From Planctomycetaceae bacterium UBA4732 (GTDB lineage Bacteria > Planctomycetota > Planctomycetia > Gemmatales > Gemmataceae): a stretch of DNA of 39,160 nucleotides. The notes under the pieces were generated by a model. That model made no database searches. It saw nothing but the letters and a program-made list of their open reading frames with translations, and had not been told where the DNA came from. Location of the stretch: positions 1 to 39,160 of the forward strand of contig DHJA01000003.1 in NCBI GenBank assembly GCA_002404095.1, written 5' to 3'. Below, in pieces: positions 2,711 through 39,160 of this stretch (positions within the stretch are counted from its first letter, which is position 1; each line of letters opens with the position of its first letter). Position numbers and translations under genes: made by a program.

Positions 2711-2741
2711 AACTGCACGCCGGTTTTTCCACTGCACACCC

Positions 2742-2875
2742 CCGGGTTCATGAGTACATTCACCCAGGGCTTTATTCCAGTCGCCCAAGGGGCTCAATTG
2801 ACGGGATGCTTTAAGGTCTTGGAGCCTGGAAGGCGACTGAAATAAAGCCCCGGGTGAACGTACTCGTGAACCCGG
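2742..2875. repeat. long inverted repeat, copy 1 of a two-copy ~135-bp family
   Basis: The 44-nt arms 2742-2785 and 2832-2875 are complementary at 40 of 44 positions and enclose a 46-nt loop. The same element, with matching arms and a recognisable loop, occurs at 24808-24945. It fills much of the 309-bp gene-free stretch 2711-3019, between the receiver gene and the iron operon; the rest of that stretch holds the promoter and Fur-like box described below. It lacks a clear T-run, and no reading frame inside looks genuine. It could be a REP/MITE-like repeat, a terminator or both. Confidence 0.85.
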
Positions 2876-2924
2876 AGTGCGACGGCGCCACACCCGTCGC
2901 ACTGTTTTTTCCGAAACCAAGCGC

Positions 2925-10420: not shown

Positions 10421-10488
10421 TCGTTTAGCCGCGACGCGAAGCGGAGCGCGTCTCTCCACGCGCTCCGCTTCGCGTCGCGGCTAAACGA
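10421..10488. terminator. perfect 30-bp hairpin between convergent genes (repeat-family member)
   Basis: Arms 10421-10450 and 10459-10488 are complementary over all 30 bases around an 8-nt loop. It starts 4 bp after the plus-strand stop and ends 9 bp before the minus-strand stop, so it can end transcription from both sides, though no T-run is present. The right arm ends in GTCGCGGCTAAACGA, shared with the sites at 8201 and 30625. Confidence 0.8.
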
Positions 10489-24765: not shown

Positions 24766-24807
24766 GAGGAATAGACCCGTAAGCAGATACGTATCCCTGA
24801 TGCCCCC

Positions 24808-24945
24808 CCGGACTCAGGAGTACCTTCGCCCGGGGCTTTATTTCGGTCGCCCTCAGCCGGGCTCCAAGAACTGTGACGATTCCGCGGGCGGAGCCCCTTC
24901 GGGCGACTGTAATAAAGCCCCGGGCGAAGGTACTCCTGAGTCCGG
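24808..24945. repeat. long inverted repeat, copy 2 of the ~135-bp family
   Basis: The 45-nt arms 24808-24852 and 24901-24945 differ at only two positions and enclose 48 nt. The loop has its own 7-bp stem (GGGCTCC 24859-24865 with GGAGCCC 24890-24896). The arms match those of 2742-2875, and parts of the loop (GGCTCCAAGA, GAGCCCCTT) recur there in the opposite orientation. The element lies in the 333-bp gene-free stretch 24766-25098; the remainder of that gap shows no gene or clear promoter. Confidence 0.88.
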
Positions 24946-25098
24946 GGTGACGACCCATATTGCAGCTTGTCAGCGACAGAGGTAGATTTAATACTTGAGG
25001 ATGCAGCCACGCCCGGCAGTCTTCCTTTGCAAAACGCCGCTTTTCCTGATAGTCCCGCCCACCCGCCGCGACTCCTACCGTCCGAGAGAACGCCAACC

Positions 25099-31620: not shown

Positions 31621-31713
31621 AAAGGATGGCCACAGATGAACACGGATGAACACAGATAAATCAATTCTTGCTCTTAATCTGTGTTCATCCGTGTTCATCT
31701 GTGGCTATCCTTT
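31621..31713. repeat. inverted repeat of the CACAGATGAACACGGATG type
   Basis: Arms 31621-31657 and 31677-31713 pair at 36 of 37 positions around a 19-nt AT-rich loop. The arms contain direct reiterations of a GATGAACAC-like unit. It fills the gap between the DUF1080 stop and the ABC ATPase start, both on the minus strand. Confidence 0.85.
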
Positions 31714-32372: not shown

Positions 32373-32402
32373 GGATGCGTTCTCCTTGAGGGTTTTGTCT
32401 CA

Positions 32403-32460
32403 CTAACCCGAAGCGCGAGCGAGGGCTTTGACAAAATTCCTCGCTTGCGCTTCGGGTTAG
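32403..32460. repeat. hairpin CTAACCCGAAGCGC...
   Basis: Arms 32403-32424 and 32439-32460 pair at 21 of 22 positions around a 14-nt loop. It ends 4 bp before the ThuA-like stop (minus strand) and can act as a terminator between it and the DUF1080 gene. Confidence 0.8.
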
Positions 32461-32464
32461 TAGT

Positions 32465-33391: not shown

Positions 33392-33502
33392 GGTGAGGAC
33401 TCCTTTGTATGACGTTGGCCGCGCCGTCGGGCGGGCCGATGGTGGAGGGTGCGCGTTAGTTTAGGAGTCTGTGGGTTGGATTGCCAGCGGGGGACGTATT
33501 TA

Positions 33503-33582
33503 CCCTACGAGCCGCGACCGTAAGGGAGCGGGGGAAAACCACTCCCTTACGGTCGCGGCTCGTGAGGTCGCGGCTCGTAGGG
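33503..33582. repeat. hairpin with a duplicated right arm (GGTCGCGGCT type)
   Basis: Arm 33507-33528 pairs perfectly (22 bp) with 33542-33563. Part of the left arm, extended to 33503-33519, also pairs over 17 bp with a second copy at 33566-33582, so two competing stems are possible. It begins immediately after the DUF1501 stop (minus strand). Its motif is related to the repeats at 8201, 10421 and 30625. Confidence 0.8.
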
Positions 33583-38210: not shown

Positions 38211-39098
38211 ATGAGCCTGCGCATCGCCATCACCGCCGATCTCCACTGGGGCCACCGCACCGGCGCCGACGCCGTCCGCCTGCTGGCGTCGTATCTTCAC
38301 GCCGAGCCGCCCGACGTGCTGGTGTTGGCCGGCGACCTCGGCGTCGGCTTGATGTTCGGGGATTGTCTCCGCCTCTTCGCGGACCTGCCGTGCCGCAAAG
38401 CCCTCGTCCCCGGCAACCACGACGTCTGGGTGCAGGCAGACGGCGCGGATTATGACTCGCTGACACTCTATGACAAACAGCTGCCGCATTGCGCTGAACG
38501 TTTCGGCTTCCACCATCTCGACCAAGGTCCGCTTCTCTTGCCGGACGCCGGCCTTGCCTTGGTCGGTTCGATGAACTGGTACGACTATTCCTGGGCGCTC
38601 GACGAACTGCGGCGCCGCTTTCCGACGGAAGAACATCGTTTGCATAGCAAGCGCTTCACACGCGGCCGGCACAACGACGCCAACTTCGTGCGCTGGCCGC
38701 TCGACGATGTTCAGTTCACGGCGCGGGTTGTGGCGACGTTTGCCCGTCAGCTTCAATCCGCGCTGGCCACGACGGACAAGGCCATTGTAATCGTGCACCA
38801 TCCGCCGTTCCACGGGTTGAGCTTCCCGCAACAAGAATCGCCGTTGCCTCTTGACGCTCTGTTGTGGGAAGCTTTCTCCGGCAATCGCGCCATGGAAGAA
38901 GTGTTAGCGCGTCACGCGGAGCGCATCCCGTTCGCGTTCTGCGGCCACACCCATAGGGCGCGCGAGGCAATGCTTGGCCCCATCCGGGGCTACAACATCG
39001 GCGGCGATTATGCGTTCAAGCGGCTGCTCGTACTGAATTGGCCGGAGGGAACCGTGACGACGCACGAATTTGGAGACGAGGCGAGCGGGGTCGCGTAA
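38211..39098 (+). CDS. calcineurin-like metallophosphoesterase
   Basis: A 295-aa phosphoesterase with the two-metal motifs D10-L-H12 (ITADLHWGH), VLAGDLG, VPGNHD, IVIVHHPPFHG and FCGHTHRA. ATG 38211 has GGAGGG 5 nt upstream and starts the fold at once; an ATG 18 nt earlier is in frame but has no ribosome site. No signal peptide, so it is cytosolic. Substrate (nucleotide, protein or RNA phosphate) is unknown. The last 19 nt of the gene lie in the left arm of a palindrome, so the final residues EASGVA and the stop codon derive from or coincide with the repeat. Confidence 0.9.
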   Translation: MSLRIAITADLHWGHRTGADAVRLLASYLHAEPPDVLVLAGDLGVGLMFGDCLRLFADLPCRKALVPGNHDVWVQADGADYDSLTLYDKQLPHCAERFGFHHLDQGPLLLPDAGLALVGSMNWYDYSWALDELRRRFPTEEHRLHSKRFTRGRHNDANFVRWPLDDVQFTARVVATFARQLQSALATTDKAIVIVHHPPFHGLSFPQQESPLPLDALLWEAFSGNRAMEEVLARHAERIPFAFCGHTHRAREAMLGPIRGYNIGGDYAFKRLLVLNWPEGTVTTHEFGDEASGVA

Positions 39099-39160
39099 GC
39101 GCCCCGAGATGGTATCAGCGACTGCATCGAACTCGGGGCGCTTACGCGACCCCGCTCGCC
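39080..39160. repeat. perfect 29-bp palindrome overlapping the 3' end of a gene
   Basis: Arms 39080-39108 and 39132-39160 are complementary at all 29 positions, enclosing a 23-nt loop. The left arm covers the last codons and the stop codon (39096-39098) of the phosphoesterase gene. The right arm reaches the window edge, so the repeat may be longer. Confidence 0.88.

Follow-up and report, generated by a model that had tools for sequence, protein, structure and literature searches.

An ATAAAG-footed family of inverted palindrome pairs, probably REPIN-like, in the genome of a Gemmataceae bacterium

The window, by which we mean the whole 39,160-nucleotide stretch of DNA that was analysed, contains two long hairpins. 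Copy 1 lies between a response-regulator gene on one side and feoA/feoB on the other, and copy 2 is flanked by a gene of the acyl-CoA dehydrogenase type and by a PSCyt1/PSCyt2/PSD1 gene. An earlier, sequence-only reading had described both as paired inverted repeats with 40 of 44 arm positions paired in copy 1 and 43 of 45 in copy 2, sharing the letters GGCGACTG-x-AATAAAGCCCCGGG; the repeats are present, the counts are exact and the shared letters occur in both copies. The elements end slightly farther out than their long arms, at 2740-2877 (copy 1) and 24806-24947 (copy 2). Folded as single-stranded DNA, copy 1 reaches -47.4 kcal/mol (z = -10.2) and copy 2 reaches -66.9 kcal/mol (z = -12.8), and none of 200 shuffled controls folds as well as copy 1 or copy 2. 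Their parts are as follows.

2740..2877, no strand assigned: copy 1, complete composite (two palindromic arms and core), aligned with 40 other copies
2740..2769, plus strand: copy 1 left arm palindrome, version GT-ATG/CAT
2770..2782, plus strand: copy 1 core stem, left strand (CTTTAT...), complementary to 2835-2847
2783..2793, plus strand: copy 1 inner hairpin GCCC-AAG-GGGC
2824..2834, plus strand: copy 1 inner hairpin GCCT-GGA-AGGC, compensated relative to GCCC/GGGC
2842..2847, plus strand: copy 1 ATAAAG foot adjoining the right arm; third-genus matches have GTAG or GTCG there
2848..2877, minus strand: copy 1 right arm palindrome, version GT-ACG/CGT, unlike the left arm
24806..24947, no strand assigned: copy 2, complete composite element
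24806..24835, plus strand: copy 2 left arm palindrome, version AC-AGG/CCT
24849..24862, plus strand: copy 2 inner hairpin GCCC-TCAGCC-GGGC
24893..24904, plus strand: copy 2 inner hairpin GCCC-CTTC-GGGC
24912..24917, plus strand: copy 2 ATAAAG foot adjoining the right arm
24918..24947, minus strand: copy 2 right arm palindrome, version AC-AGG/CCT

Copy 1 is followed directly, at 2876-2911, by another hairpin and a TTTTTT run, which together resemble an intrinsic terminator, and a TGAGATTCAATCTCA palindrome is located before feoA.

The genome that holds the window is a 6.8-Mb draft in 299 contigs with a completeness of 90%, and planctomycete cytochrome c domains occur among its genes. The proposal that the hairpins belong to an element family rather than being two chance terminators is borne out by 84 strand-wise matches to copy 2 in this genome. 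A covariance model of the core gives 100 strand-wise matches, which fall at no fewer than 53 separate places, including 6 partial ones; this figure was counted by hand and is a lower bound, with 109 first-look candidates scored. The two window copies are therefore not the only ones. With at most two mismatches allowed, the motif AATAAAGCCCCGGG is found at 62 forward and 60 reverse places, compared with 15 and 6 for a reversed control. Both arms could be recognised in 43 extracted composites, of which we aligned 41, leaving out one that contains Ns (L025) and one with an internal duplication (L011). Among 18 further arm loci, 12 are solitary arms with readable flanks inside a contig; the other six lie at contig ends, adjoin Ns or are remnants of composites.

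Examination of the alignment shows a common order of parts. The first half runs from an outer flank through an arm palindrome, CTTTAT, a variable stem and an inner hairpin to a weak central hairpin, in which 73.5% of cells are paired; the second half continues with another inner hairpin, a variable stem, ATAAAG (the foot in most copies), the other arm palindrome and TGCGAG or TACAC. The outer flank, (C)CTCGCA or GTGTA, shows weak conservation across the 82 flanks (of 86) that were compared. The arm palindromes are about 30 nt long and come in five main versions (AC-ACG/CGT-G, AC-AGG/CCT-G, AC-GTG/CAC-G, GT-ACG/CGT-A and GT-ATG/CAT-A), which are discrete, with intermediates almost absent. The inner hairpins likewise vary, as GCCC/GGGC, GTCC/GGAC, GCCT/AGGC or GCAC/GTGC (5 of the 42 copies in this tally, those with GCAC variants, were read by eye), and the letters AGTA, CTTTAT and CTC are conserved in loop and core. 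The flank motif GGCGCCTAATTCCGAAGG is a doubtful part of the element: it occurs at five places in the genome, and three of the four with known surroundings adjoin an element end or arm, but the fourth (in contig C214) has no element beside it; the fifth (in C105) is at a contig end.

Each arm is a palindrome, and the two arms are also inverted relative to one another; two foldings were compared, one with pairing within each arm and one with pairing from arm to arm along one long stem. The sequence-only reading had claimed that many substitutions are matched on the opposite arm, and compensatory changes are indeed present among the copies. The part of this claim that stands is that arms of the same version come together more often than by chance: both arms carry an equal version in 27 of 43 copies, whereas 20,000 shuffles average 10.4 and never exceed 21. 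Shared ancestry, a constraint on the long stem or conversion from one arm to the other could each account for this. The claim breaks down in the 15 of 43 copies whose arms carry different triplets, since 29 of these 30 arms are nonetheless complementary internally. Over all 43 copies, the triplet is complementary within the arm in 85 of 86 arms. Specifically, alignment columns 12-19 pair in 41/41 copies and columns 135-142 in 40/41, whereas the arm-to-arm pairs 12-142 and 19-135 hold in 29/41 and 30/41. The two small core hairpins keep their own pairing in part, as the arms do; the inner pair 48-57 holds in 41/41 and its arm-to-arm alternative 48-105 in 36/41. Over the whole structure, the within-arm model accounts for 15 pairs with double-sided changes (94 cells) and the long stem for 9 pairs (62 cells), the core stem being common to both models in this tally.

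Several measures point the other way and count against the REPIN-like reading that we develop below. Columns 7-25 are unpaired in 32/41 copies, whereas the long-stem pair 7-147 is unpaired in 2/41; likewise, columns 47-58 are unpaired in 21/41 and the long-stem pair 47-106 in 0/41. The mismatch at these column pairs is A-C on the aligned strand and G-T on the other. In addition, the long stem has more paired cells (96.0 versus 91.2%); it is also the fold of lowest free energy and the one that prevails in the RNAalifold consensus. The weakness of the central hairpin is a further point on this side. Both foldings probably matter, but at the version-defining triplet the within-arm folding is the one that survives. 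That the triplet letters change while their pairing stays argues for a hairpin over an ordinary sequence-specific protein site. The copies with unlike arms separate within-arm from between-arm pairing, which are usually confounded in hairpin repeats, and point to the unit that is maintained.

It is conceivable that mutation alone made these hairpins, with template switching or conversion in palindromes perfecting them in the absence of selection. The discrete versions, the near absence of intermediates and the excess of same-version arms are what such a process might leave behind; however, it explains neither the amplification of the element, nor the conserved letters of loop and core, nor the conservation of the core across genera, and we consider it very improbable.

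The positions of the copies were compared with genes called by a simple codon-based caller. Forty of the 43 composites overlap called ORFs by 20 nt at most. Over all 43, the gaps are tandem in 24 cases, divergent in 13 and convergent in none, with three composites overlapping an ORF and three without a neighbour. The 0/37 convergent composites (those with two called neighbours and without overlap) compare with 15 of 101 background gaps, for which loci partly overlap (Fisher P = 0.011). In the 24 tandem gaps, the element lies a median of 20.5 nt past the stop codon and 121 nt ahead of the next start, and it is closer to the upstream stop in 22 of 24. This distribution, with copies past stops and ahead of starts, could be that of a promoter-side DNA architecture element, for example, a cruciform-prone insulator or a supercoiling/gyrase site that selection keeps upstream of promoters, and a palindromic character that stays constant while base identity varies would suit such a role. 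Nevertheless, convergent genes surround 2 of the 13 solitary arms that have a called gene on each side (at a low gene-call threshold), the family is patchy (this genome and one other among 95 of the family, with single weaker core matches in two more), and insertion followed by purifying selection yields a similar placement. Of the 55 start-facing genes, the 30 scanned with Pfam also lack a common function, which led us to reject the idea of a regulon. Their functions are mostly unrelated and include a class II D/K/N tRNA synthetase, ribosomal S2, a deformylase and a kinase, among others, the only repeated functions are PSCyt1/PSCyt2 (in two) and ABC-transporter domains (in three), four genes have no Pfam match, and none of the 30 is a transposase. 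We regard a purely architectural element as unlikely.

The strong folding and the compensatory changes could also reflect a structured RNA such as a leader, an sRNA or an RNase target. However, no Rfam model matches either copy at its gathering score (the sole hit is a tRNA), matches below the gathering score are mostly to microRNA-type hairpins, 13 copies lie between divergent genes, and the genes downstream are unrelated. Orientation within tandem gaps is 15 versus 9, a count made by eye that is uncertain for the more symmetric copies, and this also speaks against a transcript. A transcript function is thus disfavoured, and we give it a low probability.

Mobility as a MITE had been among the options left by the sequence-only reading. 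The arms could be terminal inverted repeats of a MITE mobilised by a DDE transposon; such a non-autonomous element would have inverted ends, a length near 140 bp and a high copy number, as this family does. In contrast to what such an origin predicts, there is no excess of 3-8-nt direct repeats around the 39 of 43 copies tested, whereas 4-6-nt direct repeats flank 10 of the 11 copies viewed of a second repeat family in the same genome. Furthermore, the ends are themselves palindromic with exchangeable versions, and an unsystematic look noticed no larger element with these ends. A cut-and-paste MITE is therefore disfavoured, and we judge it about as improbable as a structured RNA.

We consider it probable, with moderate confidence, that the element is REPIN-like, with two REP-type palindromes, inverted so that their heads face inward, on either side of a conserved and structured core of about 85 nt. 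The observations that support this are the many copies, nearly all clear of called genes, the palindromic arms with complementary triplets, the mixing of versions between the two ends, the solitary arms and the absence of target-site duplications in the 39 copies. In the mechanism that we propose, the element would act as a single-stranded DNA hairpin, and a RAYT-type Y1 (HUH) tyrosine transposase acting in trans would copy it within the genome, with the ATAAAG foot taking the place of GTAG as the guide. Selection would remove insertions that cost the cell a promoter or gene, so that the remaining copies would lie just past stop codons and away from promoter regions, and solitary arms may result when the centre is deleted between short direct repeats (CCGGGG). 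A central deletion in an inverted REP dimer has been described as a possible source of double-foot single REPs (PMC6006769), which match the solitary arms seen here if that step is accepted.

The family shares much with known repeats. ERIC/IRU and BIME elements are intergenic inverted repeats of about the same size, although we liken them to the family by description only. Like GTAG-type REPs and REPINs, it has many intergenic copies of a short palindrome, arranged as inverted doublets with a hairpin-forming spacer and also as singlets. Two defining characteristics differ: the hairpin foot is ATAAAG rather than GTAG or GTGG, and none of 19 PF01797 loci is a cognate RAYT flanked by the same repeats. 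Because both of these were tested and neither was found, we do not file the family as a GTAG REP. According to Bertels and Rainey 2011 (PMC3116915), REPINs are inverted REP doublets with hairpin-forming spacers and compensatory changes; they are extragenic, have many copies and have singlets taken as derived from doublets, all as here, but the present family differs from what is described there by a conserved core with two further hairpins, by its foot and by the lack of a RAYT found with it. The GTAG- and CGTC-tagged REPs described in PMC3733652 also form head-to-head dimers with conserved, sometimes structured spacers, as homodimers or as heterodimers with different stems, and the CGTC class, like this family, is without a dedicated transposase. 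Unlike those families, ours has neither tag; the aligned flanks contain no conserved CGTC on either side of the arms. Untagged REP-like families nevertheless exist elsewhere, according to the same source (PMC3733652). PMC6006769 describes atypical structures beside Y1 subclasses 2.6 and 3; class 3 occurs mainly in Planctomycetes, Acidobacteria and Proteobacteria, and its structures are REP-like without GTAG, as in our family, but they have a CnGA foot, whereas our arms have ATAAAG and no Y1 gene beside them. A title-level search of a limited literature collection returned no title on an ATAAAG-footed family. On our best reading, this is a variant of the known REP/REPIN repeats with a replaced foot and not a new class. 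A more elaborate version of the REPIN-like reading is, in our estimate, as unlikely as the purely architectural one: a REPIN lineage would have exchanged its GTAG guide for ATAAAG and acquired a doubly nested cruciform, whose two large hairpins and two small ones can alternatively close up as a single long stem; a transposase whose usual substrate is another REP family may move this lineage in trans, and the promoter-side placement may have given it an insulator role.

Relatives of the element are rare. By blastn, 2 of 95 family genomes match, this one included; the other, G036, belongs to a second genus and has the same core with different arms, CCCCGGGCTCG-NN-GACTCGCCCGGGG. A search of 59 relatives likewise found the family in two, counting this genome, and a search of 392 genomes of the phylum, with 11 candidates scored per genome, found it in this genome only. 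An IUPAC pattern run against genome contigs, from which records of this genome were possibly excluded, returned four stretches, all in the MAG NC_groundwater_65, which is probably G036 given the equal core scores of the loci; with the same possible exclusion, a stricter pattern had no match in genome contigs and the IUPAC pattern none in viral contigs. When the core covariance model was applied to 41 genomes of the order, three matched, again including this one.

Two genomes of a third genus each contain a single weaker core match, L199 and L200 (E = 9.9e-4 and 1.9e-3 per genome, 41 searched), and both matches recurred in a search of DNA selected so as to contain them. Reading outward from the core, the arms are GTAG-CCGGGGTCGTGAGACCCTGG and GTCG-CCAGGGTAGTGAGACCCTGG in L199 and GTAG-CCAGGGTCGTGAGACCCTGG and GTAG-CCCGTGGGCGTAAGCCCCTGG in L200. 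These arms have the REP format, and three of the four carry a GTAG foot where the element in our genome has ATAAAG. Against 60 shuffles that keep the hairpins, the core alignment score of L199 is in clear excess (20 versus a maximum of 15.5) and that of L200 in narrow excess (19 versus 18.5). Together, these weaker matches suggest that related cores with REP-format arms occur in the third genus. Against the link, GTAG-footed hairpins show no excess over GATG-footed controls in 765 kb of third-genus DNA (41 versus 63); none of 11 third-genus Y1 loci has GTAG arms of the L199/L200 type beside it. If it holds in more copies, a homologous core with GTAG feet in one genus and ATAAAG feet in another would provide a direct test of guide change in single-strand transposases.

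The search for a cognate transposase covered the 10 PF01797 genes of this genome and 9 in G036, with flanks of up to about 1.5 kb on either side, less at contig ends; the assemblies are incomplete and some loci are cut short. No arm lies beside any of these genes, and the best arm match near them has 4 mismatches, which is at chance level. Two candidates for a cognate RAYT, L088 and L090, were rejected: AAAG-footed hairpins lie beside their Y1 genes, but the hairpin sequences are unrelated to the arms. A link to the RAYT repeat of contig C49 through a common GGAGTAC was also set aside, as that repeat has different arms and a different core.

The second repeat family noted above was seen at 11 loci of this genome (L171-L176 and L178-L182) and has the form (C)AGTACTTTC...GAAAGTACT(G) with an inner hairpin TCACGCTCCGCGTGA. 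The direct repeats at its flanks are GTAA, GTTA, TTAC or CGTAAG, and the remaining copy, L175, has inverted flanks instead. By eye, these flanks look like halves of another REP-like hairpin, as if the family inserted into such loops. They resemble hairpins of the AGCCGCGACC...GGGAGCGG / GAGCGAGGG kind, perfect or nearly so, that lie in the window at 10421-10488, 32402-32461, 33502-33582 and 39080-39160. The window also has a 40-nt inverted repeat of the ACAGATGAACACGGATGAACAC type at 31621-31713. A Y1-transposase gene at L092/L177 (G000:C49:16900-17700) has the second-family hairpin TCACGCTCCGCGTGA on both sides. At L094 (G000:C154 near 10282), GTAGCCGGCCTCTGTGAGGCCGG hairpins lie alongside a weak Y1-transposase match that is below the Pfam cut-off; the GTAGCCGGCCTCTGTGAGGCCGG hairpin is also present in the sampled DNA of genomes G066 and G075.
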